From NCBI RefSeq assembly GCF_032118995.1, contig NC_092650.1, positions 17,851,501 through 17,915,500 of the forward strand: a stretch of 64,000 bases of DNA, given 5' to 3'. Both the position numbers and the translations under genes were made by a program. Position 1 is the stretch's first letter. Each line of letters starts with the position of its first letter. Below the pieces are notes generated by a model. It did not search any database. It was not told the DNA's origin and saw only the letters and a program-made list of their open reading frames with translations. Shown in pieces: positions 6,821 through 64,000 of this stretch. This DNA comes from Asterias amurensis. Its lineage: Eukaryota; Echinodermata; Asteroidea; Forcipulatida; Asteriidae.

Positions 6821-7480
6821 AACAACTCGGCAATCCCTCAATACACATCCTGAAGGCTGACAAGGGTAATGCCACTGTTGTAATGGACCGCACTGAATAT
6901 GATCAAAAGGTTCAAAGTATCCTTGACACAGATACCTATGTCCGCCTAAAGAAGAACCCGATCCCATCAGTTGAAAGGAAGCTCGCTGCCAAGCTCCTCT
7001 CCCTTAACCGTAGCACTGCCATACCCACTCCATTGTACAGACATCTCAGGCCTTCGGCCTCAAAGTGCCCGAGATTCTTTGGTCAGCCAAAGATTCACAA
7101 ACCAGATAAACCGCTCCGCCCTATTGTCTCCTCTCGAGGTTCCCCTACCTACAACCTCGCCCAACACTTGACCAAGCTTTTACACCCACTTGTGGGCAAA
7201 ACACCTCACCATGTACCCAATTCAGCAGGGTTTATCGATATTATCAAGGGAATTGAATTACAGTCATCTGATATATTAGTGAGTTTTGATGTCAAATCTC
7301 TTTTCACTAACGTACCCACAGATGAAGCTTGCCAAATAACCAAAGCAAGATGAAACTCTAACCGATCGAACCAGCCTAACGCCAGACCAGATTCATGATC
7401 TATTAATGACATGCGTGAAGTCCACATACTTCCAATGGAGAGATGGATAGTACAGACAGGCTTTAGGAACTCCCATGGGG
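6821..7480 (+). mobile_element. Penelope-like retroelement fossil (reverse transcriptase)
   Basis: The translation carries typical Penelope reverse-transcriptase blocks: ILKADKGNATVVMDR, CPRFFGQPKIHKPDKPLRPI, NLAQHLTKLLHPLVG and SDILVSFDVKSLFTNVP, followed downstream by DRTSLTPDQIHDLL. Only a central part of the protein is present. Both ends, the GIY-YIG endonuclease and the later catalytic blocks are absent from the readable region, so this is a broken relic. It abuts the right arm of M7. Confidence 0.85.
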
Positions 7481-33400: not shown

Positions 33401-36400
33401 GTTGTTATTATTTGTAAAGCTCCTAATGCGAAAAGCCTCTCAGTGCATAAAGAGAAACAATAAAACATACAATGAGAGAAATATACAAATTACAATATAT
33501 GCAGGGGCATTGTTAGTGAGTGATTTATGCACACACAAAAGTTTACACTTAATCCTACTTTATAAGAGATGTTAAATTTGCATCGGGGATAAAGAATATT
33601 AATTTTGGTTTTTACCCATACACCGATGTGTGTTAGCACTGTATACTCAATACTTTCCCGAGTCCTATGAAAAAATATCACAGGCATGTTACTCGGGTGG
33701 GATTCGAACCCACGACCCTTGCAATTCTAGAGCAGTGTCTTACCAACTAGACTACCGAGGTTTCCCGGTAGCTAGATCGGTAGCCTGGTAGCTAATCCTA
33801 CTGCTTACTGGTACTTGATTGTTATATAGTGAACATACATGTATCTCAACAAAACACCCAAAACCAACTAGAGAATGAAGTTTACTAACCTTTTCCCCAC
33901 AACAAAAATGTGAGGGCACATAGCCGACTCTGTAATATACAACAGCCACTTCCATGTCGTCTCTGAAAAAAAGGGGAAAAGAGAGTTAAAACAGAGTCGC
34001 TATGTGTTCCTGATGAGGAATGAAGCACATTTTTGAAACAGCTACTTGAGCGGAATGTTTTTAACAGAAATGGTATTTTAACTTGTTGAAAATGCACTTG
34101 TTCACCATTTCAATGTGTTTTGAAACGTGTACACTTCTGAATTTTTGGTAATTATAGATTTTTTTTCTTTTCTTTCATAGTTATCTCGCAACTCAACTGA
34201 CCAATCAAGCTCAAATTTTCACAGGTTTGTTATTTTATGCATGTTGAGATACACAAAGTGAGAAGACTGGTCTTTGACAACTACCAATAGTGTCCACTGT
34301 CTTTAAGCTTTGGGTGAATCTCTGGTTCTTCTCAGAGCCCACCCACTGCAGGGTTTGATCTTGAGACTGCAGGGTATTGAAACTCAAAATTTGCAATGGA
34401 TCAGGAAATTGTTTGCAGGACCACAATGAAAGTAAAATTAAACAAAAGTTGAACAAAAAGTTCAAGGGTTCCCCAAAACAATGGTCACAATAAACACAGT
34501 TTGTTAGAATCAAACCGCAGTAAAGTAAACAGCAACAAACACATCTAATAATAATAATAAGGGGTGACAGGCAAGCTGATGACAAATTTGTCTGAATCTA
34601 GGGAAGATTGTTGAAATAATGCTATTCCACCTTTTGGTAACCCCTGGAGTTAAAGATTCCAATGATCTCTAAAGACAAATTGAAATTTCACTTGAAATTT
34701 TCAAATTTTCATTTAAAATTTTATTTGAAATTTCGTTTGAAATTTCATTTGAAATTTTCAAATTTTATTTGAAATTTTATTAAGCTGATGACAAATTTGT
34801 CTGAATCTAGGGAAGATTGTTGAAATAATGCTATTCCACCTTTTGGTAACCCCTGGAGTTAAAGATTCCAATGATCTTTAAAGACAAATTGAAATTTCAT
34901 TTGAAATTTTCAAATTTTCATTTAAAATTTTATTTGAAATTTCGTTTGAAATTTCATTTGAAATTTTCAAATTTTATTTGAAATTTTATTAAGCTGATGA
35001 CAAATTTGTCTGAATCTAGGGAAGATTGTTGAAATAATGCTACTCCACCTTTTGGTAACCCCTGGAGTTAAAGATTCCAATGATCTTTAAAGACAAATTG
35101 TTTCATTTGAAATTTTCAAATTTTCATTTAAAATTTTATTTGAAATTTCGTTTGAAATTTCATTTTTCAAATTTTATTTGAAATTTTATTTGAAATTTCA
35201 TTTGAAGTTTTCCAATTTTCAACTTGAAATTTCAACTTGAAATTTCTAATTTGCAATTTCAAATTGAAATTTCATTTGTTTCAAACAGCTTTTCAGAAGT
35301 TCATTTCTCTTGTTTTCCCGATGTTCCCTCTTCTTTCTGTTGATTCGTTTCTGCTTTCTTCTTTTCATGCGCTTTGAGCACCTTCTTAGGTGGATATATT
35401 AGTTTTCCTTATTATGATTATTTATTAGGTAGATGAACCAGCCAGACTCATTTCAAATTGGAGAAAAATACAGCTTTTTTTGTTTCCCAGGCAAACTTGA
35501 CAAAAGTCTGAATGAACATAACATGTATAAAGTCTAACATTTCTCATCCCCGATAATTACTAAGAAAAAAAAGTTAACTATTGTTGTTGTTTTTTCTTCT
35601 TACATGATTAAACGTCTGTCGTCCGAAAGCCGCCCCCTCTTGCCCATGTCAGACAGCGATCGTCGGATAACTCGTATGCATGACTCCTGCTTTTTCATGG
35701 TGAACTCCAAAAGGCGTTGATCGAAGATGTTCTGCTCCGGGCAACACACCATGTAGCACACGACAGCACTGATCAACAAGAATACAGGAAGATAAACATT
35801 AACTCAGCCGTTAACAGACTCACTGTTTTGAGTAACCCCTGGTAGGATGCCAGTCTCCCTTGCACTCCACCGACATCCTGGGCATAAAGTTTCTCCACAA
35901 TTCAAATAAAGTTTAAAATAAAGTTTGCTCATCTTTTTACCTGCTCTAAGCAGCTGAAATTTCGCTCAATATTCTTATCTCCTAAACTATACTTTTGATT
36001 GGTCCACAAAAAAAAGAATCTGTCCATCAGTGGATGACAATGAATGGTCAGAGAGTAGGAGGGTGTACTGTGTATATGTAGATGCCTTCACCTCATGATA
36101 TATTGTGGATGGTATTAATGGTTAGACAGTAGGAGGGTTGACTGTACTTCGTACTTAAATTCACCATGTGATAGATTGCAGGCTGGCATAGTAAATCTAT
36201 CAATCAAAACCACCGTGAATAATAATAATTGGTCAGACAGTAGGAGGGTTTATAAGCTTCCAAACAGTCCTTTCAGGTTTCTTGGCTGGTGTTGTATCCA
36301 TACAAGAATTTGTTTTGATCATCTTCATATGGGTTGAAGGTCTCAAAGCCCCAGTGGGCATCGGCTCTTTATGCGCCTGTACCATAGAAATAGAATACGG

Positions 36401-41159: not shown

Positions 41160-41935
41160 GCTCATTCTGAATAATAATACTGGTAGTCGTAAGTCGGACA
41201 CAAAGCTTAATCACGAGGGTAGACAAGTGAATGATCCCCATGAGGTCGCTGATATATTCAATAATTACTTCACTAACATTGGCCCAGCACTGAATAGTAA
41301 AATTCCACAAACAGATGTGTCATTTAGAGATTTTTTTAAATGTAATCACCCTGAATCAATGTTTTTCTACCCTACGGATCAAAAGGATGTTTGTGATATT
41401 GCCAAACCATTTAAGAACGGTAAAAGTGCTGGGTACGATGACCTGAGCCCTGATGTTTTTAAGTCCATTATTTCCAAAATTAGTCGGCCATTATGCCATG
41501 TTTGTAACTAATTTTTTGTCCATTTCTAAGGGTGTTTTTCCCGATAAACTTAAAATGGCCAAAGTGACCCCCATATTCAAAGTTGGAGACCAGTGTGAAA
41601 CCATTAACTACCGACCAAGATCTGTGTTATCATGTTTTTCTAAACTTCTCGAAAAAATAGTCTACATGAGAACTTCTTCTATATTATTTTTATTTGATAT
41701 TTTGTACAATGGTCAATACGGGTTTAGAAGTAATCATTCTACTGACATGGCTGTAATAAACCTGGTCCATAAAATTACTAAAGGTTTTGAGAATAACTGC
41801 ATATCGCGCAGTGTCTTTCTATTCTTGTCTAAGGGCTTCGACACCATCAATCACAAAATTCTGCTTCAAAAGCTTAATTATTATTGCATAAGATTTACTA
41901 CTCTGAATTGGTTTTTTAGTTATCTTACGAACAGG
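41160..41935 (+). mobile_element. LINE reverse-transcriptase fragment (CR1/Jockey type)
   Basis: Typical non-LTR blocks occur in order: VADIFNNYFTNIGPAL, FKNGKSAGYDDLSPDVFKSI, MAKVTPIFKVGDQCETINYR, LLEKIVYMRTSS, NGQYGFRSNHSTDMAVINL, LSKGFDTINHKILLQKLNYY and NWFFSYLTNRGK. One frame change near 41500 separates the first part from the rest. The FADD catalytic box and everything after block 5 are missing, so the copy is dead. R1 begins exactly where it stops. Confidence 0.85.
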
Positions 41936-42575
41936 GGAAAAATACAGAGGCTTAAAGAAGCCATGTGCCTTATATCATTTTCTAATATTTTTTGAGATTT
42001 TTTTTGTAACCCTCCGATCAATATTATTATTTATATTAAAATTTAAACGATCAGCTTGTTGATTCAATTATCACTGTTTATTTATAATACGCTTTATTAT
42101 AAATTTTAAGAGGAAAAAAACGGGAAAAAATAAGTAAAAATCAGATTTGAAAGCCAATGATTATTCACAATTTTTATTAAAATATTTATTTTTGTAATTT
42201 TTTGCAAATTACCATGGTAATTTTAAAATTTCATTAAAAGATATTTTGAATAAAACGAAGACTTTTGCTGGCTATAGAGTCATCCACAGAGTCTCAAAGA
42301 ACACTTGTAGTCACTGTAGATGTTTCTTCCATGTATGGATTCACCGGGAAACCATGCTTTCTTGTTTGCCGTGAAAACAGGAAAAATTCATAACAAATGG
42401 GGCCATTTCATGATTTGAAGTGATCAAAGATCAGTGTGTAGTGTGAACATTTCAATGTCCATCAAGTTTTAATATATGTTTGCATACTTACTATTAACAA
42501 AAGAAGGTAATTAGGGCACCAGTTGATATAATTATAAAGGCATCTTTATCCCAATTCAAAGAAAAAGGCATAATA
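41936..42575 (+). repeat. R1 dispersed repeat, copy 2
   Basis: Matches 10070-10700 from AATACAGAGGCTTAAAGAAG to CAATTCAAAGAAAAAGGCAT. It follows directly on the LINE fragment, raising the possibility that R1 is the LINE's 3' part or was inserted at that point. Confidence 0.75.
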
Positions 42576-47228: not shown

Positions 47229-50200
47229 CTACTCTATCAGCGTACCAGTCATACGGAAGGCACTCTGGAAGTTAGTAAGGTAAGCACAAGCCTTAAACAC
47301 ATGCTCAAAAATGTCTAATTGCGTCGGGTCTACCTGCTTTCGGAGATAAGTAAACTGTTTTATTCTATCTATTGTTCTGTCAATGTCATTTGAGGAAGTC
47401 GCACATTCGTTCCTTTCAGACATTCTAGGCACCCTGGTTGGATTGTTAAATCGGTTGTGAACCTTAGTGAAGTCCAAGTACTTGTTTGGTGAAATCTTCA
47501 CTACTGCTTGATCATCTGGCATGGTTAGCACACCTGTCACTGCTCCCTTGTCGTTTAAACAGAGGAAAGTCAACTTACGGAGCTCAGATCGAGACGAGTT
47601 TTGATCTTTAACGCGAAGCACACTGGGAGAGTCAGAAAAGAGAGCTGTAAAATCAACCGCTACAAATGTATCTCCGCCTTTGGCTGCTTCTGTTTCGTAA
47701 AAGTCTTCCAGCTTGGTGCTCACAAAGACAGCCCATGATGCAAAGGTGAATCTGTACGTCTCCTCACTGACACCGAATCGCACAGACAGATCGCTCGCGG
47801 AATTTCCCGTCCTCGACCCAACAAGAAACAAGAACAACTCCTCCTCTGATGTCAAAGGTTGCTGGGAGTTCATCTCTGCATCTTCGACATCTTCGACGAT
47901 GTGGAAAGGTTCGGGTTTGACCTTCTCTACATCGAGTTTCAAATAGTCATGGAGAAGTTTAAAGATCGCATAATTCGGAAGACCTGTGTACATTTCAAAC
48001 ACACTGTCACTGTCTTTGACATTTTGGAGGCTAAGCAGCTTCAGGGAATCACAAGCTTTTTTGTAAGATGATGAGTCCTCCATCAATTGATGATAGTGCT
48101 TCCAAAAATCGTTCTCCTGAGAGCAACTTTTCTTCGCTGGTTGCTCATCTTGAACTTGATCCAGACTCTGCAGAACAAGAGAAAACACAAATATCAGTTT
48201 AAAAAACCCGGACTCACACACAGCATGCCACTTTGGTATTCCAATAGATGGAATTTTGCATTTGATGCAAATTTCAGTCCATTAGATCGGTGCGGTACCC
48301 GCTGCTAAAATATAGGATTCCAACTGCCTCTAGCTACCGGTCAATCTCACTGGTCTAGTTGGTAAGACACTGTACTAGAATTGCAAAGGCTGTGGGTTCA
48401 AATTCCACCCAAGCATTATGCCTCAGTGCCCGTATTTTTTTCACAGAGCACGAAAAAGTACCGAGTGTACAGTGCTAACACACTGGTGTATATGTGTTAA
48501 ACCAAAATAAATATAGTTTTTCTTTGTTTTGAAACTTTGTTGGAGTTTTGCCACAAATCACACCATCACCGCATATTTCTATTTGTTCTCCAAAAAACTT
48601 GATGTTTCATTTCACTAGAGAGGAGGTCGGACAATTCTCTTGGAGCTTAAAATGACACGTTGAATTGGATCGGGCGAGTTGGTCCATGAAAAGCATTTGT
48701 TATGAAATCAATATGGTTAAAAAGATGTTTTTAAAGTAGAATATTATTCGCACACATACAAGCCTTGAAAGTAGGTTGTTTTCCTTTTACTCTGCGAACT
48801 AAGGTCATCCATTTTATGGAGTCAAAAATTGACTCCCCAAAATGGCATGCCATGTTAGTTGGTGACGTATAAATAAAACCATGCAATTTTGAGGTATATT
48901 TGTGTGGATCATTTTATTCTACTTTTAAATCATCTTTCTAACAATACACATTTTATAACAAATGGCTTCAAATGATTTTCATAGACCAACTCGACCGATC
49001 AAAGGCAACATTTCCCTTTTAATCTTTTAATTTATAATTATAAGCAAAACAAGAACTTGTTTTGAGTACCTTTTTCTTGAGTTTTCTCCCTTGGTGTGGT
49101 GCACTGTTAGAAATGGTCTCAGTTTCAAAACTTGGTGCAACATTGAAGAATATCGTTGGAACAACCTTGTTCGTGGGAGTTGGCTGTTTCTCAAAATGAC
49201 AATTACAGAGTCTTAGATGGTTGCCTGTGATCAGTTTTGTCCCTGTTATCTTGTTTTCTGCGACATCACATTTTGCTGCTGTCATCCACTTTCTCGCCAG
49301 CTTCTTGTTTTTTGGAAACGAGTAGAAAGTGCAACCGAACTTAACCCTGGGATGCGAACATCCAAGTGCTGAACATATCTGTTTTGACTTCGCGTTTGTC
49401 TTCAACTCAACAGATTCTTCTAACTTCGACTTGGCTTTCTGCAGCTTGTTCTGATTAGCCAACTTGGAGGATTTTTTCAACCTGCTGGCTTCTTCTGAAC
49501 CGACAGGGGTCCTTGACTTGGTTGGTGCTCTTAACGATGTACACATAGGTGTCTTCAACCTAACTGTTTCTCGCATCTTGGCTGGTTTCTTCAACATTCT
49601 GTTAAAATTGGTTGTTTTCAACCTGTCAGCTTCTTCTGACTCGACAGGGGTTTTTGACTCGGTTGGTGCTTTTGACTTTGTACATGCAGTTGTCTTTATC
49701 TTAACAGTTGTTTGCACCTTGGCTGGTTTCTTTAACTTAGTGTATTTGTTTAACAACCCGTTAAAAACAGTTGTTTTCGAACTGGCAGCTTCTTCACACT
49801 CGACCCGGGTCCTTAACTTGGTTTTTGTTCTTAACTTTGAACATGCAGGTGTCTTTATCTTAACATTTTTTTGCACCTTGGCCTGTTTCTTGAAACTTGT
49901 GGACTTCCTTGACAACCTGTTAACAACAGTTGTTTCCGACCTGGCCACTTCTTCCGACTCGACAGAGGTCCATCTTGACTCGGTTGGTGGTCTTAAATTT
50001 GTACACGCACCAGGTGTCTTTACCCCAACAAGTTTTTTCTTCTTGGCTGGTTTCTTGAAACTTGAGGATTTCTTTAACAACCCGTTAACAACAGTTGTTT
50101 TCAACCTGGCAGCTTCTTCTGACTCGACAGGGGTCCTAAACTCGGTTGGTGCTTTTGACTTTGTACACACAGGTGTCTTTATTGGAACAGCTTTTCCCAC

Positions 50201-51238
50201 CTTAGCTTGTTTCTTAAAATTGGTGGATTTCCTGAACAAGCCGTTAACAACTGTTGTTTTCAACCTGTCCACTTCTTCCGACTCGACAGGGGTCCTTAAC
50301 TCAGTTGGTGCTTTTAACGTTGACCGCGCAGGAGTCTTTATCGCAGCAGTTTTTTCCACCTTAGCTTGTTTCTTGAAACTTGTGGATTTCCTTAACAACC
50401 TGTTAACAGTTGTTTTCAACCTGTCCGCTTCTTCCGACTCGACAGAGGTCGTTCTTGACTTCGTTGGCGGTCTTAAATTTATACACACACAAGGTGTCTT
50501 TACCCCAACAGTTTTTTCTTTCTTGGCTCGTTTCTTGAAACTTGTTGATTTTTTTAACAACCCGTTTACAACAGTTGTTTTCAATATGGCCGCTTCTTCC
50601 GACTCGACAGGGGTCCTTAACTTGGTTGTTGTTCTCAACTTTGAATATGCAAGTGTCTTCGTCTTAACATTTTTTTTAGCCTTGGCTGGCTTCTTTAAAT
50701 TTGTGGATTTCCTTAACAACCCGTTAACAACAGTTGGTTTCTTTAAATTGGTGTATTTCTTAAAAAGCCCTTTAACAGCAATTGTTTTCAACCTGGTCAT
50801 TTCTTCCGACTCGACAGGGGTCCTTCTTGTCTTGGTTGTTGTTCTTAACTTTGTACACGATGATGTTTTCAACTTAACTGTTTTTTCCACCTTTGCTAGC
50901 TTCTTTAAATTAGTGGATTTCTTGAACTTGGTTACTCTCTTTAACTCATCATGTGTAACAGACTTCTTAGTTGAACCCTTTCGGTTAACAGTTGCTAACA
51001 ACCCGTCTTGTTTCTTAAACTTGAAAGTGATACGCGTACATTTTTTTGCAGATTTCTCTTGGCCGTTTGACATCAATGACTCAATAGTTTTTACCGGCTT
51101 AACCGACGAAGGTGTCTTCAAAGTGGCAGCTTTAAGTGATTTGATATGTGTTGTTGACTTTCCATGTTTCTTCAAAGTAGATTGATCGGTCCCTGCTGGA
51201 GGGGTGATGGATGTCTTTGATTTTTTAGTTTTTCCCAT
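47229..51238 (-). CDS. Gene B: THAP + HTH + shortened DDE protein, transposase-derived
   Basis: Two coding exons, 49070-51238 and 47229-48167, phase 0, 1035 residues. The start ATG at 51238 has G at -3 and G at +4. Residues 1-80 are basic. About 80-615 are nine to ten repeats of roughly 53 residues with ESEEA, LKTTVVNGLL, STSFKK and IKTP signatures. Residues 621-699 form a THAP zinc domain with C622, C627, C678, H681, W651 and VVPTIFF. Exon 2 begins SLDQVQDEQ and contains YTGLPNYAIF, an HTH_Tnp_4-like segment (about 828-880, LTSEEELFLFL, SDLSVRFGVSEE) and the first DDE block VAVDFTALFSDSP (D895). Residues corresponding to the second catalytic Asp block are absent, and the usual ER motif reads DRTIDRIKQF. 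Family knowledge says this layout comes from THAP-bearing Harbinger/ISL2EU-type transposases. The missing core suggests a domesticated DNA-binding protein. It ends KACAYLTNFQS like gene A. The intron holds an M2 and a SINE. Confidence 0.8.
48305..48520 (+). mobile_element. tRNA-derived SINE (gene B 3' side intron)
   Basis: A box CTGGTCTAGTTGGTAAGACA, B box GGTTCAAATTCCACCC, then body AAAGTACCGAGTGTACAGTG and ACACACTGGTGTATATG. It includes the upstream head block seen at 1.8 kb. Confidence 0.75.
48650..49022. mobile_element. M2 foldback MITE in gene B intron
   Basis: GACACGTTGAATTGGATCGG at the left and AAAGGCAACATTTCCCTT at the right, with TTAA at 49019-49022. A diverged centre (GTCAAAAATTGACTCCCC) remains. 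The right edge lies 47 bp downstream, in transcript sense, of the donor of the THAP exon. Confidence 0.8.
49440..51000 (-). repeat. Coding minisatellite of gene B, ~159-bp units
   Basis: The plus-strand block GACTCGACAGGGGTCC and variants marks unit boundaries near 49499, 49640, 49798, 49957, 50125, 50278, 50437, 50599 and 50807. Unit length is a multiple of three throughout, and the coding frame is kept open across all units. Variation between units is mostly amino-acid-conservative. Confidence 0.85.
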
Positions 51239-51480
51239 CTCAGCCGATATTCCAGTCTTGAGGGTTTCTTTAAATTGGCAGCTTACTGCGAATCAACAAA
51301 AGGTGTCAAGTTCCTTCGGGTGGCTTGTTCTGGCTCTGTCTGGAAAAAAAAGAGAAAACAGATTCAAGGTATATTAAGATAACTATTCAATAATTATTGG
51401 GAAGATTTCGACAACACCCCCCCCCCCCCCATCTAACTATAAAAGTCAAGTCTTCAAAGCAAGCAGTGGAGTAACTTAGC

Positions 51481-54895: not shown

Positions 54896-54978
54896 ATTGA
54901 CTAGATCAGGATTTCAACCTGTGACCTGCGGATTAACATGCCTGTGCTCTTCCAACTGAGCTATCCAGCCCTATGTTG
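54896..54978 (-). mobile_element. tRNA-Asn-like SINE head
   Basis: On the minus strand it reads GGATAGCTCAGTTGGAAGAG (A box) and CAGGTTGAAATCCTGA (B box), with GTT at the anticodon position. The acceptor stem does not pair fully, and a related half copy lies at 55690-55730. It is called a SINE head, not a tRNA gene. Confidence 0.55.
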
Positions 54979-55787: not shown

Positions 55788-58700
55788 TCATGAAACACTC
55801 TGGAAGTTAACAAGAAATGCACAAGCCTTAAACACTTGCTCATACATGTCCTCCATCGATGGTTCCACTTGCTTCTGTAAGTAATGGAACTGCTTGATTC
55901 TATTCAGAGCTCGCTCCACGTGGAACACTTCAGCAGTGGACATGGGTGTCATGTGACTCTTACTCAAGTCCTCTGTGATGACAAGAGAAGAGACATCCCC
56001 TGGCTGTGATGAGTTTGGCAAGATTTTAGTCCCCTGCTCATGCTTGACAGGCCCTAATGAGGACGGTTGCTTTGAGGCACTGTCTGTGCTCTCGTTGTGG
56101 GTTGTTGAAACTCTTGCAAAAGCATGCCCTCTCTTAGTGCTGAGTACACTTGTCACTACACCATATCTGCTGAAGCCAACTGCTATTAATCGTCGGCTAA
56201 TAATTGTTTCATTCTGCTGAGTGGTCAACAACGCTGGAGATTCACTAAACAGAGCTGTGTAATCCACCGCAACGTTGAACTTTGCCTTTTTAGTTACCGT
56301 TGTGTTGTAGAACTTCTCCAGGGTGTCACTTACAAAGACGGCCCATGATGAAATGATGTTATTGACCAAGCGCTCACTGATGCTGAATCGAATGGCGAGA
56401 TCCTTGCTGGAACTACCAGTTCTGACCGCGACCAGGAACAAGAACAACTGGTCCTCTATTGTCAAGGTTTGTCGATTTACATTGATGGTGTCAATGAATG
56501 TGAACTCCCCGAATGGTAAAGCTTTGAAGCGCCAAAGACATGAAGCATTCATAGCCATATATCCGCAGAGAACTTCAAAAGTTGCGTAGTTGGGGAGGCC
56601 GGTGTATGTTTCAAAGACGCTGTCATTACATTTGATGTTCTGAAGTGACAACACCTTGGTGGAATTGCATGTTGCTTTAAGCGTCATCACTTCTTTTTCA
56701 AGCTGGTGATAATTCTTCCAAAAACTTGGGGCGCATGAGTCAACTGCATTGTAGGCTTCCTTCGACAGAAAATGTTTCATTTGTTGATAAAAGCTAGGTC
56801 GACAGTTATTCTGTGAAAAAACAATGACATGGACAACTTGACATTCAGTTTGATTGAAGTATAAGCCAATCAGACAAATTATCAGTGTAGTAGCCATGTT
56901 GGGGGTGCCGGGCGTGCTCGCCCAGATATTGAACAATTAGCCCAGCACTCTGAGCAAAATACACCGTGCAGCCCAACACAGATTTCCCTTAGATTGCACC
57001 TCAGCAATGATGACCCCTATGTTCAGACATTAATAATTATAAAGTTATTTCCAACAAAATGATGATCCTTGGGCGATAAGAACTGAAAGAGCATGTAGAA
57101 GAAATCATTTATATATTTTGGGTTATAAATATAACAATTTGCTGTATTTATATAAATACAACAAATTATTTACATTTACATTTTTGCTCTCATTTGGGGT
57201 GATTATAAGTACCAATACTGGATTCTAGTGGGTAGATATCAATGGACTTGTTATAAAGGTTGGGTACTTTTTGTTCGACAAAAAAAACCAGAGAATTATT
57301 TCAACATGTGCAACAGGTTTATATGCGCCTCTCTTGATAACATTGCTGTGTGATACATTTTCACTTTTAATGAAGCTGAAACTTCTACAGGTACCTTATT
57401 TTTTATAACATCATCATCCAGAACTCAGAGTGAGTAGGAATTCATGCCCTAGCCAAAAACTTGATCTACAAAAAGTATCAAACCCTCTAAAGGCAGTGGA
57501 CACTAGTGGTAATTACTCAAAATATTTATTAGCATAAAACCTTAATCGGTAACGAGTAATGGGGAGAGGTTTATGGTTTAACACATTGTGAGAAACAGCT
57601 CCCTCTGAAGTGACGTAGTTTTCGAGAAAGAAGTAATTTTCCACCAATTTGATTTTGAGACCCCAGAACTAGATTTTGAGGTCTCGAAATCGAGCATCTG
57701 AAAGCGCACAACTTCGTGTGAGAAGGGTGATTTTTCTTTCATAGTTATCTCGCAACTTCGATGACCAATTGACTTCAAATTTGCACAAGCTTGTTATTTT
57801 ATGCATACATGTATGTTGAGATACAACAAGTGAGATGACTGGTCTTTGACAGTTACCAATAGTGTCCAGTGTCTTTAAAACAGGAAATATTGGTTTTAAA
57901 CATACCTCTGGGGATGTTGGTTTCTCCAGGGGCTTTGCAGACATGATGGGAATTCTCTTCACTCTCTTCACAGGCTTACTGCTAGCTTTAAAGTCAGCGG
58001 CGAGAAAGTTAAACAAAGTGGGCACAATATTTTTCAACCGTTGGCTTGACGTTCTGGGATAAGGTACCCTAGCGAAATGACACTCGCAAAGTCTCAAATT
58101 TCGACTTGAAAAATTCTTCTTCTTTGTAAAGCCATCTTTGGAGAGGTTGCATCTTGAAGCTTTGATCCACTTCTGGTTTGCTTTGGAGTATCTTGGGAAG
58201 CTGTAGAAGGCACAGCGAGATTTGCTCTTCTTATGTGAACATCCAAACGCCGCACATTTATCTTTCTTGACTGTCTTGGGTCGACCCTCATGCTGCACAT
58301 TGAAAAAGATTGACAATAAACGACAGAAATAACAATTTGTTTTCAATTTATTTATTTATTAATAATAGCTTTTGCGTCCTTAAAGGCACTGGACACTATA
58401 AGGAATTTACTAACTAACTAACTTGGCAAGTAGCAATGGAGAGCTGTTGATTGTAAAAACATTGTAAGAAACAGCTCCTTCCTTAGTAACTTAGTTTTTG
58501 AGAAAGAAGTCATATTCCACTTAAGTATTTGATTTTGATTTTGAGACGTCAGGATTAGATTTTCACAGGTTTGTTATTTTGTGCATATGTTGAGATACAC
58601 CAAGTGAGAAGAGTTTCCAGTGTCTTTAAGGAAGATACTGAACCATAATTGCTTTGTCCTTCGCATGGACATTAAAGCCATTGGACACTTTCGGAACAGA

Positions 58701-61700
58701 AAAAATCAAAAGTTCATACAAATAAACAGGGTTTACCGAAGGTAATGGTGAAAGATTTCTCTTGAATGAAATATGATTCCATGAAATGCTTTACTTTTTG
58801 AGGAAACATTAAAACAATTATCAATTCTCGATATTGAGAATTACGTGTTTATTTTAAACACCTTTCATGACACGGCCAAACGTGCCGGAAATAAGGGTGG
58901 GTTTTCCAATTACTTTCTCCCGACTCCGATGACCGATTGAGGCTTAATTTTCACAGGTTTGTTATTTTATATATTAGTTGTGATACACGAAGTGTGGGCC
59001 TCGGACAAAACTGTTTACCGAAAATGTCCAATGGCTTTAAGCTGTAGGTCCTGTGTACTAGGATTGTCCGTGCACACAAAAGCTAAGAAGTCTTATCTGG
59101 AATTATATTGGAGGTCAAGTTACTGGTCCTAACTTACTCAGAATTGCCTCAAGTTTTTAAGTTCTCCTAGGACTAACTCTTTGTGAAATCACCCCCTGAA
59201 CGCTTACCGTGGAAGAGTAAGGGGGTAATTCTGGTTCACATAGTAGCAAGCACAGTTTTACTACTATATGTAGACTACTAACAATAAAAGGTACACAAAT
59301 GGAAAGAAACTACATAAATGCATTGAGTGCTTACTGTTTCATGGCTGACTGAATTCTCAATTTTCACATTGAAGGATTCCACTGACTTTCCACTGTCTTG
59401 TTGATCATCCTGCAATAAAACAATAAACAAGTGACAACAAATGTAAACAAAACTGCAAAAAGTTTCAACTCAAAACACTAACTGCCAACAAGGACACAAG
59501 TTTTTCCCATTCCATCATGTCTAGCACAAGACAGGTGGGGAAAAGCTTGTGTCCGGCTGCTGTGCAGCCAACTGATGATGATGATGCGCAATGCACAGTG
59601 CACTTCCTCACGTCTATCCGTGGAACAGTACTGTACGGGGTTAACCTGGTAATTCTGGTTTACATAGCAAGCACCCATAGTTTCATTACTACATGTAGGC
59701 TACTAGTAATAAAAGGCACACAAAAGGGGGGAAAACCTGCATTATATGCGTTGAGTGCTTACTGTTTCATGGTTGGCAAAATTCTCAATCTTCACGTTGA
59801 AGGATTCCACTGACTGTCCATAGTCTTGTTGATCATCCTGCAATAAAACAATAAACAAGTGACAACAAATGTAAAAGACAGTACAAAGTTACAACTCAAA
59901 ACACTAACTAACAACAAGGACACTAAGCTTTTCCCATTCCATCCTGTCTAGCACAAGACAGGTGGGAAAAGCTTTTTCCGCCCGCTGCGCAGGCGACTGA
60001 TGATGTAGTCTTGGTACCAAGACCATTGGTGTTGCGCGGTCACACACAACCAACGTTCCGATCTACGCACGGCAAAAACTGTACACGTGTAATGAACGAA
60101 CATTAGCGGGAGCTCTTTTTCTCTGATATCTGTATCTCACCATGGTCTCCGCACGTCTATCGGTGGAACAGTACTGTACGGGGTTAACCTGGTAATTCTG
60201 GTTACCTTAGCAAGCACCCATAGTTTCATTACTACATATAGGCTACTAGTAAAAAATGGCACACAAAAGGGGTGAAAACCTGCATTATATGCGTTGAGTG
60301 CTTACTGTTTCATGGTTGTCGGAATTCTCAATCTTCACATTGAAGGATTCCACTGACTTTCCACTGTCTTGTTGATCATCCTGCAATAAAACAATAAACA
60401 AGTGACAACAAATGTAAACAAAACTGCAAAAAGTTTCAACTCAAAACACTAACTAACAACAAGGACACTAAGCTTTTCCCATTCCATCATGTCTAGCACA
60501 AGACAGGTGGAAAAAGCTTGTGTCCGGCTGCTGTGCAGCCAACTGATAATGATGATGCACAATGAACAGCGCATTCCCCACATCTATCCACAGAACAGTA
60601 AGGGGTTAACCCTGTAATTCTGGTTTACATTGCAGGCACCCATTGTTTAATTGCTACATGTAGACTACTAGTAATAAAAGGCACACAAAAGAAAGAAAAA
60701 ACTGCATATGCATTGAGTGCTTACTGTTTCATGGCTTTCGGAATTCTCAATCTTCACGTGAAAGGATTCCACTGAATTTCCATCGTCTTGTTGATCATCC
60801 TGCAATAAAACAATAAACAAGTGACAACAAATGTAAACAAAACTGCAAAAAGTTTCAACTCAAAACACTTACTGCCAACAAGGACACAAGCTTTTCCCAT
60901 TCCATCATGTCTAGCACAAGACAGATGGGAAAAGCTTGTGTCCGCCTGCTGTGCAGGTGACTGATGATGATGCACAATGAACAGCGCATTCCCCACATCT
61001 ATCCACGGAACAGTAAGGGGTTAACCCTGTAATTCTGGTTTACATTGCAGGCACCCATTGTTTAATTGCTACATGTAGACTACTAGTAATAAAAGGCACA
61101 CAAAAGGAAAAAAACTGCATATGCATCGAATGCTTACTGTTTCATGGCTGACTGAATTCTCAATCTTAACGTTGAAGGATTCCACTGACTTTCCATAGTC
61201 TTGTTGATCATCCTGCAATAAAACAATAAACAAGTGACAACAAATGTAAAAAAACTGCAAAAAGTTTCAACTCAAAACACTAACTGCCAACAAGGACACA
61301 AGCTTTTCCCATTCCATCATGTCTAGCACAAGACAGGTGGGGAAAGCTTTTTCCGCCTGCTGTGCAGCCAACTGATAATGATGATACGCAATGCACAGTG
61401 CACTTCCGCACGTCTATCCGTGGAACAGTACTGTACGGGGTTAACCTGGTTAATCTGGTTTACATAGCAAGCACCCATAGTTTCATTACTACATGTAGGC
61501 TACTAGTAAAAAAAGGCACACAAAAGGGGGGAAAACCTGCATTATATGCGTTGAGTGCTTACTGTTTCATGGCTGATGGAATTCTCAATCTTCACATTGA
61601 AGGATTCCACTGAATTTCCACTGTCTTGTTGATCATCCTGCAATAAAACAATAAACAAGTGACACAAATGTAAAAAACTGCAAAAAGTTACCACTCAAAA

Positions 61701-64000
61701 CACTAACTAACAACAAGGACACAAGTTTTTCCCATTCCATCATGTCTAGCACATGACAGGTGGGGAAAGCTTTTTCCGCCTGCTGTGCAGGCGACTGATG
61801 ATGATGCACAATGGACAGCGCACTTCCGCACATCTATCCATGGAAGAGTAAGGGGTTAACCCTGTAATTCTGGTTTACATAGCAAGCACCCATAGTTTCA
61901 TTACTACATGTAGGCTACTAGTAAAAAAAGGCACACAAAAGGGGGGAAAACCTGCATTATATGCATTGAGTGCTTACTGTTTCATGGCTGACGGAATTCT
62001 CAATCTTCACGTTGAAGGATTCCACTGACTTTCCATAGTCTTGTTGATCGCCCTGCAATAAAACAAGTGACAACAAATGTAAACAAAACTGCAAAAAGTT
62101 ACAACTCAAAACACTAACTGCCAACAAGGACACAAGCTTTTCCTATTCCATCATGTCTAGCACAAGACAGGTTGGAAAAGCTTGTGTCCGCCTGCTGTGC
62201 AGGCGACTGATGATGATGATGCATAATGAACAGCGCACTTCCCCACATCTATCCACGGAACAGTAAGGGGTTAACCCGGTAATTCAGGTTTACTTAGCAA
62301 GCACCCATAGTTTCATTACTTACTACACGTAGACTATTAGTAATAAAAGGCACACAATAGGGGGAAAAAAACCTGCATATGCATCGAGTGCTTACTGTTT
62401 CATGGCTGACTGAATTCTCAATTTTCACATTGAAGGATTCCACTGAATTTCCATAGTCTTGTTGATCATCCTGCAATAAAACAATAAACAAGTGAAAACA
62501 AATGTAAACAAAACTGAAATAAAAAACACTAACTGCCAACAAGGACACTAAGCTTTTCCCATTCTATCCTGTCTAGCACAAGACAGATGGGAAAAGCTTG
62601 TCTCCACCTGGGTCCAATTTCATAGAGCTGCTAAGCAAAACAATTTGCTCAGCACAAAACTTCGTCCTTGATAAAAACAAGATTACCAACCAAATTTCCA
62701 TATGATTTTCAGATCAAGCAAACAACAGCTGAATACAATATGCAACAAATGGAAATTTGGTTGATAATCCTAACTTTTAACAATAAGGAAATTTCATGCT
62801 AAGCAAATGTTTGTGCTTAGCAGCTCTATGATATTGGGCCCTGCTGTGCAGCCAACTGAGGATGATGATGATACACAATGAAAAGCGCACTTCCCAACGT
62901 TTATCCTGTTTGCCATTTTGGGAGTCAAAATGTACACAGTCTGCGCAACACATATTGACTACTAAAATCGTTGTTATGGTAGACATCCATTGTCATTAAC
63001 TCATAGACCTTTTCGCAAATACCGTTGCGCAAGCGCAGACTGTTGAATGGTGGGGTGCATTGTGGGATAGATATGGATCAAATTCGATCAAATTTGATCA
63101 CCAGTAAGTTAGACCACAATGCACCTAATTCCAAGCTTTACACGCTCGCCCAAGTATTTGTGCACGAACAGCGCTCTCTATAAGCGACATCCAACACATA
63201 TGCTTATCATGTGCATTTTGTTTCACAGTAATCATTTTCTCTTGCTCAAAACTCATCATCTGGTAACTGAATTTGTATGAATTATAGTAAAACAAATTAA
63301 TATGATTTATTTCGGGTGACTAGCCGATGAGCTCCCCTCGGTATTGGAAGTTGACAAACTAGTTCCCGAGGCATCACCTCGGGAACTTCGCCTCGGGAAC
63401 TAGTTTGTCAACTTCCAATACCGAGGGGAGCTAATCGACTAGTCACCCGAAATAAACCATGTTATATTTGTTTTACTATACTTCATACATAATTATTCAG
63501 TTACCGTTGCAAATAGGAACAAGGGGAAATGACGACTGAAGAAATAAAATGCAATCTTGATAACTTTTTTCATGAACATTTCTTAATTTAATTTCTGCAC
63601 TTATTAAACACAAGGAAGGATACAATAAATATGGATTTAGCTCATTCCATTATTGTTTACGAGTTCATGTTTTTTAGCTGTTATAAATAATACCTGGCAG
63701 TTGTGGAATCGCAAATTGGATGACGTTTGCACCAGTTCACCCTGCCGAGAAATTCCAATGTTCAAGGATTGTCCGAAGTTTGGTGAATTTGTCAAATCAT
63801 TCAGAATTGCTTCCTCTTGGGAGTTTGACAGCAACTGAAGTTGTGGAGATTGCGGCAACTTTACATGTGTATCAGAGTCAATGATGGTGGAACCTGAGGA
63901 GGTTGATGGCTGATGATCTCGGTCTGTTGCTATAGCGCTGCCATGCAAAGAAGTTGCAATCGTTTGTGAAGTATTAGCTGACAGAATTTGGCTCGTTTTG
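55788..64000 (-). CDS. Gene A: repeat-exon THAP + HTH + shortened DDE protein, 5' end off window
   Basis: Coding exons in transcript order are: 63694 to beyond 64000 (open frame, Ser/Gln-rich, ending RFHNCQ); eight 75-nt exons (62396-62470, 61978-62052, 61563-61637, 61138-61212, 60725-60799, 60306-60380, 59763-59837, 59335-59409); the THAP exon 57906-58292 (129 codons); and the terminal exon 55788-56810 (340 residues). All junctions are phase 0, giving at least 771 residues. The repeat exon reads like DDQQDYGKSVESFNVKIENS with VKIE in every copy. The THAP domain has CAAFGC, W, CECH and NIVPTLFNF, followed by a basic stretch (KPVKRVKRIP) that could be a nuclear signal. The last exon has YTGLPNYATF, an HTH_Tnp_4-like segment (LTIEDQLFLFLVAVRTG, LAIRFSISERL), VAVDYTALFSESP and HVERALNRIKQF. 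The second catalytic Asp block is replaced by a Ser/Pro-rich linker. It is probably a nuclear DNA-binding regulator derived from a transposase and paralogous to gene B. Confidence 0.82.
56937..57486. other. Gene A intron, part without features
   Basis: AT-rich intronic sequence between the terminal exon and the THAP exon. No repeat or exon was recognised. Confidence 0.4.
57487..57877 (-). mobile_element. M1 MITE in gene A intron
   Basis: Left CTAA at 57487 followed by AGGCAGTGGACACTAGTGG, right TTAA at 57874-57877. The element ends 28 bp below the donor of the THAP exon (57906). Confidence 0.88.
58380..58628 (-). mobile_element. M1 MITE with internal deletion
   Basis: TTAA at 58380-58383 and 58625-58628, termini AGGCACTGGACACTATAAGG and TTTCCAGTGTCT. 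The middle third is missing. Confidence 0.8.
58672..59040 (-). mobile_element. M3 MITE, intact ends
   Basis: TTAA at 58672-58675 and 59037-59040, termini AGCCATTGGACACTTTCGG and CCGAAAATGTCCAATGGCT. It lies in the intron between the repeat exons and the THAP exon. A worn M6 end follows at 59120-59203. Confidence 0.9.
59208..62907 (-). repeat. Tandem array of ~418-bp exon-plus-intron units (8 full, 1 partial)
   Basis: Exon starts are spaced 428, 543, 419, 413, 425, 415 and 418 bp. The 543-bp unit carries an extra 120 bp or so (60005-60130). Each unit holds a 75-nt exon with acceptor TATTGTTTTATTGCAG and donor ACA-gtaagca, a conserved intron, and a hairpin (AAGCTTTTCCCA facing TGGGAAAAGCTT around GTCTAGCACAAGAC). 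A ninth partial unit lies at 62545-62907, lacks a recognised exon and is interrupted by M17. Confidence 0.92.
62609..62843. mobile_element. M17 foldback element
   Basis: Termini GGGTCCAATTTCATAGAGCT and AGCTCTATGATATTGGGCCC, with GCTAAGCAAA/TTTGCTTAGC just inside. It is inserted in the ninth, partial array unit. Confidence 0.8.
63002..63200. mobile_element. M15 element, partial
   Basis: ATAGACCTTTTCGCAAATAC and GTTGCGCAA recur in diverged form near 39295. AAATTCGATCAAATTTGATC is an internal palindrome. Boundaries are uncertain. Confidence 0.4.
63262..63505. mobile_element. M9 long foldback element
   Basis: Arms of about 110 bp: GGTAACTGAATTTGTATGAA at the left faces CATAATTATTCAGTTACC at the right. 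The inner 80 bp (CCCCTCGGTATTGGAAGTTG, ACAAACTAGTTCCCGAGG) pairs almost perfectly. It lies in gene A's first visible intron. Confidence 0.85.

Follow-up and report, generated by a model that had tools for sequence, protein, structure and literature searches.

We found that a transposase-derived gene (gene A) on the minus strand of the window, as we call the whole 64,000-nucleotide stretch of Asterias amurensis DNA analysed here, contains a true tandem exon duplication that has expanded an acidic segment beside its THAP domain. The array consists of eight neighbouring, homologous exons whose splice sites are intact and whose homology extends into the flanking introns, and each encodes a tetrapeptide, VKIE, that matches the psi-K-x-E consensus for SUMO attachment in 8/8 repeats. 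The best explanation of the whole, and on balance a probable one, is a duplicated array whose copies are spliced in, setting an acidic repeat with candidate SUMO acceptors next to the THAP domain.

All of the repeat exons (Table 1) are 75 nt long, equal to 25 residues and a multiple of three, and they lie in one common frame from 62470 to 59335 on the minus strand. Their acceptors end in TTGTTTTATTGCAG in every copy, their donors read GTAAGCACTC in seven and GTAAGCATTC in one (GTAAGCA(C/T)TC), and each of the 14 gap-free columns at acceptor positions -20 to -1 is invariant across the eight. In translation, VKIE occupies residues 15-18 of every copy, and variable positions include residue 6, residue 8 (K, N or Q) and residues 20-22 (SVS, SIS, SES, SDN or FAN). 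An earlier note on this DNA had described eight phase-matched 25-codon exons with like splice sites, all carrying VKIE; this description was confirmed with its coordinates exact, and the residue variants that it quoted around VKIE are present in the translations. Copies 3, 6 and 8 read DSG(N/K)SVES, where the remaining five have DYG or DDG. The DSG form resembles what we take to be a beta-TrCP phosphodegron of the DSG...S type, a candidate motif that the variable residue 6 would presumably switch.

Table 1. Exons of the gene A model and intronic hairpins of the tandem units, with positions in the window
Feature	Position	Strand	Translation or remark
Upstream exon	63694..63999	-	102 codons, runs off the window, S/Q/T-rich; splice site placed by eye; ends in phase 0
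Hairpin upstream of exon 1	62525..62608	-	intronic
Repeat exon 1	62396..62470	-	DDQQDYGNSVESFNVKIENSVSHET
Hairpin upstream of exon 2	62113..62197	-	intronic
Repeat exon 2	61978..62052	-	GDQQDYGKSVESFNVKIENSVSHET
Hairpin upstream of exon 3	61701..61781	-	intronic; weakest, z -2.6
Repeat exon 3	61563..61637	-	DDQQDSGNSVESFNVKIENSISHET
Hairpin upstream of exon 4	61279..61358	-	intronic
Repeat exon 4	61138..61212	-	DDQQDYGKSVESFNVKIENSVSHET
Hairpin upstream of exon 5	60868..60952	-	intronic; strongest, z -8.0
Repeat exon 5	60725..60799	-	DDQQDDGNSVESFHVKIENSESHET
Hairpin upstream of exon 6	60448..60532	-	intronic
Repeat exon 6	60306..60380	-	DDQQDSGKSVESFNVKIENSDNHET
Hairpin upstream of exon 7	59910..59986	-	intronic
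Repeat exon 7	59763..59837	-	DDQQDYGQSVESFNVKIENFANHET
Hairpin upstream of exon 8	59483..59568	-	intronic
Repeat exon 8	59335..59409	-	DDQQDSGKSVESFNVKIENSVSHET
THAP exon	57906..58292	-	129 codons, multiple of three; THAP match at exon residues 13-94
Last exon, with stop	55788..56810	-	HTH_Tnp_4 and the C-terminal end of DDE_Tnp_4

The repeat exons are parts of tandem units of about 415 bp, located upstream of the THAP exon and of the exon with HTH_Tnp_4 and DDE_Tnp_4. Tandem Repeats Finder reported a 415-nt unit in 5.8 copies at 60176-62610 (88% matches, score 3563), and a blastn search with one unit as query recovered all eight, at 86-93% over 394-451 columns when the self match is set aside. 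The introns before repeat exons 2-8 measure 338-353 nt, except for one of 468 nt before exon 7. Unit homology runs beyond the array on both sides: past exon 8 it continues downstream to ~59,225, and upstream of exon 1 it reappears at 62,840-62,896; between exon 1 and this upstream piece lies an inverted-repeat (MITE-like) insertion (62605-62846, arms of 72 nt with 79% complementarity), which splits the outermost unit. The array is one exon copied and not a product of chance, and its eight motifs share one origin rather than being eight independent ones. A 415-bp unit made up of an intronic hairpin, the 75-nt exon and the downstream intron was tandemly duplicated to eight copies, and over evolutionary time unequal crossing-over probably altered their number.

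Our model of gene A comprises 11 exons (the upstream exon, the eight repeats, the THAP exon and the last exon) and ten introns. When joined, the exons give 771 codons with a single terminal stop and none internal, a length to be read as at least 771 because the first exon leaves the window; the ten complete exons are multiples of three, as are the visible 306 nt of the first. No Pfam match in the upstream exon exceeded its cut-off. The THAP domain (PF05485) was matched at E 1.9e-9 (38.6 bits against a Pfam cut-off of 23.9), and the last exon matched both HTH_Tnp_4 (PF13613; E 4.1e-9, 36.3 bits against 27) and DDE_Tnp_4 (PF13359; E 9.9e-6, 25.7 bits against 24.8), the latter only at profile positions 118-158, the last 41 of 158, with positions 1-117 unmatched in gene A. 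Because the DDE_Tnp_4 match is confined to this part, it is doubtful from the sequence that gene A is a working transposase, and we infer that it was domesticated from one. The predicted structure of the last-exon protein, which together with the unmatched profile positions bears on whether the DDE catalytic triad is complete, was of low confidence (mean pLDDT 39.4) and was set aside. The exact repeat-exon pattern had 0 matches in collections of genome contigs and viral contigs, and the last-exon protein gave two pattern matches in viral contigs, neither of them confirmed.

A THAP/HTH paralogue, gene B, lies at 47229-51292 (-). It is 39% identical to gene A over 322 aligned positions of the last exon and 38% identical over 102 positions of the THAP domain; its THAP match is over the Pfam cut-off and its HTH and DDE matches are under. 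Gene B also has a repeat before its THAP domain, which is lysine-rich, about 53 residues long and contained within one exon (159-nt period, 7.1 copies, 49611-50741). Homology of the VKIE exon to these repeats was rejected, as tblastn found no match between them at E 1; the sole weak tblastn hit of the VKIE exon, at 35720-35791 (33% over 24 residues), was taken as chance. The two neighbouring THAP/HTH genes have thus each expanded a different, unrelated repeat before the THAP domain, in separate exons in gene A versus inside one exon in gene B, and even without SUMO these repeats bear on how domesticated transposases gain regulatory segments. The THAP exon of gene B has no strict SUMO motif and its HTH exon has one, a VKPE at ~47921-47910 (-) that sits just before the HTH domain, where gene A aligns FKAL. 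Elsewhere in the window we noted open frames resembling, by eye, reverse transcriptase fragments at 6823-7353 (+) and 41161-41995 (+), a tRNA-Ser (AGA) gene at 33688-33761 (-), and additional Rfam tRNA matches at 54898-54970 (-) and 48351-48408 (+, partial), neither of which was called by ARAGORN.

The repeat exons are probably coding, to judge by their frames and divergence. Frame 0 is open in 8/8 copies, frame 1 in only one (with a stop in 7/8) and frame 2 in none, and the eight-copy alignment has 0 gap blocks in exon columns versus 15 in intron columns (P 0.036 binomial, 0.024 Poisson). Nonsynonymous divergence was 0.069 (pN) against a synonymous 0.180 (pS), a pN/pS of 0.38. Neutral simulations, scaled to three assumed rates, produced so low a ratio with probability 0.061, 0.032 and 0.095, 18 or more invariant codons with probability 0.017, 0.0007 and 0.124, and eight stop-free copies with probability 0.25, 0.18 and 0.36; the selection signal is weak, at P 0.03 to 0.10 for the low pN/pS depending on the assumed rate. 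Constraint on the exon is only modest, and its conservation is no higher than that of the adjacent upstream intron, because its mean pairwise distance is 0.0895 versus 0.067 for the acceptor-side intron (-80 to -21); the corresponding distance for introns without splice sites, 0.111, includes the diverged outer flank of exon 8. The exon differed more than the introns in three of 28 pairs (3-7, 4-5 and 5-8; uncorrected p<0.05, the three not being mutually independent) and less in none, and the adjoining units 4 and 5 (61212-60725, -) differ at 8/75 exon sites versus 8/258 intron sites (p 0.013 uncorrected). Diversifying selection that drives the exon faster than the intron is conceivable for these three of 28 pairs, uncorrected; exchange between units may account for them, because the trees from the left and right unit flanks disagree (both are weakly supported).

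Both the reality of the copies and their presence in the protein have alternatives. An intron-like exon divergence and the three fast-exon pairs are also what a non-coding or dying tandem repeat would offer, that is, an intronic satellite of exon-like units absent from the protein; the eight copies without stop or gap, the single open frame and the intact splice sites argue against such a satellite, which we consider decidedly unlikely. Genome assemblers easily miscount tandem repeat units, and units of 415 bp could have been miscounted here. The copies, however, differ at 4 to 13% of exon sites, every one has private intron differences, and the single 468-nt intron stands out among its shorter neighbours; an artefactual count of eight is extremely unlikely, and a real count other than eight is possible. 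Because all eight copies keep strong splice sites and the frame, most or all of them appear to be spliced in. Such copies would give up to 200 acidic, probably disordered residues directly N-terminal to the DNA-binding THAP domain, the array ending 12 residues before the THAP match. Each repeat has a net charge of -3 to -7 and is rich in S, D, E, N and Q, and it is this composition that points to disorder.

The earlier note had proposed up to eight SUMO sites beside the THAP domain. The frame-neutral exons, the THAP domain and a psi-K-x-E in each repeat all stand, but the conservation of VKIE turned out to be no evidence for SUMO: the motif is not specially conserved, and its invariance is unremarkable because 18 of the 25 residues are invariant across copies (P 0.24 for four named residues all being so). 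DQQD, SVES, VESF and KIEN are just as invariant. A codon-by-codon comparison of synonymous and nonsynonymous change, which the same note had suggested, gave VKIE 0 nonsynonymous changes and 2 synonymous ones versus 13 and 5 elsewhere (p 0.11, minimal-change count), and the FNVKIEN core 1 and 4 versus 12 and 3 (p 0.03, for a window picked after seeing the data). The K and E of the motif were not seen to change as freely as their neighbours, in that the V and K codons have synonymous changes only and the I and E codons none; since no change of any kind occurred there, the I and E codons carry no information on constraint. VKIE was retained in all eight copies in 6.9, 2.7 and 11.9% of neutral runs at the three rates. 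A strict psi-K-x-E appeared in 5.5% of shuffles of one 25-residue unit, and only one motif needed to arise; outside the array, gene A has a single strict psi-K-x-E (VKHE, last exon), with 0.55 expected in shuffles. Eight identical motifs from one duplicated exon are not, alone, an argument for eight selected SUMO sites.

These results leave considerable room for an array that serves solely as a flexible, acidic and polar segment of spacer or activation type by the basic THAP domain, with VKIE incidental and never sumoylated. Charge and composition, the equal invariance of DQQD and SVES and the non-significant constancy of VKIE fit such a spacer, and the purely synonymous changes at V and K, together with a nonsynonymous share in FNVKIEN below that of its flanks (post hoc), run against it; we judge it quite possible, a little short of probable. 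That VKIE in each repeat is a SUMO acceptor we propose tentatively, as plausible though less likely than not. Were every repeat to accept SUMO through its psi-K-x-E, more SUMO moieties would be brought near the DNA-bound protein, and the added SUMO would strengthen the protein's recruitment of co-repressors that read SUMO. If sumoylated, gene A would have gained multivalent SUMO acceptance in one step via exon duplication, and would offer a naturally graded set of doses in which to ask how repression depends on SUMO valency.

Inclusion of the copies could also be variable or mutually exclusive, steered by hairpins if arms of different introns pair and loop out the exons between them. A strong hairpin lies upstream of the acceptor in 8/8 units (MFE -32 to -55 kcal/mol, z -2.6 to -8.0), computed arm-to-arm duplexes across units (-15.7 to -44.0 kcal/mol) are comparable to within-unit pairing, and the copies differ at residues 6, 8 and 20-22; moreover, a published model links stem-loop duplication to competing structures in mutually exclusive exons (PMC6071210). 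Against this, the hairpin decays: over 33 pairs in 8 copies, its stem shows 0 compensatory changes, 15 broken cells and 3 one-sided ones, 18 further cells being gapped, partly because the input sequences were cut to unequal lengths. We rejected the hairpin as a maintained RNA element on the compensatory and broken counts. Because each unit carries both arms, a local hairpin is favoured, unlike in an arrangement with a single docking site. A scan for such a site was marginal in the left flanking intron (-38.8, where 12 shuffles averaged -34.8 and reached -38.1 at best) and found none in the right flanking intron (-33.0 versus a mean of -32.7 and a best of -34.1 in 12 shuffles), the shuffles being produced by a home-made, approximate dinucleotide procedure. 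Exclusive exons are described as having weaker splice sites (PMC6071210), whereas all of those in gene A are strong. Given the lack of compensatory changes, the frequent breaks and the absence of a clear docking site, the hairpin is likely a passenger, an old palindromic insertion; hairpin-steered inclusion is unlikely. The exons are most likely joined constitutively. Exon skipping in an individual animal might grade SUMO dosage, a possibility that gains no support from these data. In the boldest version, splicing would choose how many of the eight exons enter the transcript of a domesticated transposase and so fix its count of SUMO acceptors beside the DNA-binding domain, with skipping aided by cross-unit arm pairing and site strength varied by residues 6, 8 and 20-22; this version is very unlikely.

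Tandem exon duplication is a known kind of event, reportedly treated by Kondrashov and Koonin in 2001. As in other cases, exon and flanking intron have been copied head to tail in gene A, with symmetrical phase and intact splice sites; gene A differs in its eight copies, in the 25-residue acidic segment that they encode and in its THAP transposase-derived setting. In the open-licence literature searched, we found no description of a tandem exon array that multiplies SUMO motifs, beside a THAP domain or otherwise. Stem-loop duplication has been proposed to create mutually exclusive exons (PMC6071210), and gene A shares with Dscam-type arrays its tandem homologous exons, similar introns and co-duplicated intronic stem-loops (PMC6071210, PMC1397879). 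It differs from them in that its symmetrical 75-nt exons can be included all together, in that there is no convincing common docking site, and in that its hairpin is not maintained.

Among transposases, those of ISL2EU (PHIS transposons) combine THAP, HTH and DDE domains in one protein (PMC4482050), and all three are over their Pfam cut-offs in gene A, the DDE domain in its C-terminal part only. Gene A departs from ISL2EU in the 41/158 DDE_Tnp_4 positions matched, in the ten introns of its model and in its duplicated paralogue nearby. Echinoderm genes of the THAP-B class have the identical domain order, THAP/HTH_Tnp_4/DDE_Tnp_4 (PMC13228809, preprint); their peptides are 413-569 residues long, with no exon array mentioned in the available part of that preprint, versus at least 771 residues for gene A. 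In C. elegans, LIN-15B, a THAP repressor, acts on the same immune genes as SUMO factors do (PMC11975079), and in the portion of that paper at hand we found no statement that the THAP protein is itself sumoylated. More broadly, psi-K-x-E is the usual context of SUMO acceptors, sumoylation limits transcription-factor synergy, and the synergy-control motif is a SUMO motif with proline or glycine flanks (PMC3554661). The gene A repeats do not take this form: proline is absent from the 200-residue array, and the closest glycine stands eight residues before the V or, where exon 2 follows exon 1, eight residues after the E. Like other transcription factors with SUMO sites, including FOG-2 with four (PMC3511347), gene A has psi-K-x-E motifs in a DNA-binding protein, several per protein (PMC3554661, PMC3511347); in gene A, by contrast, the candidate sites are copies of one exon.
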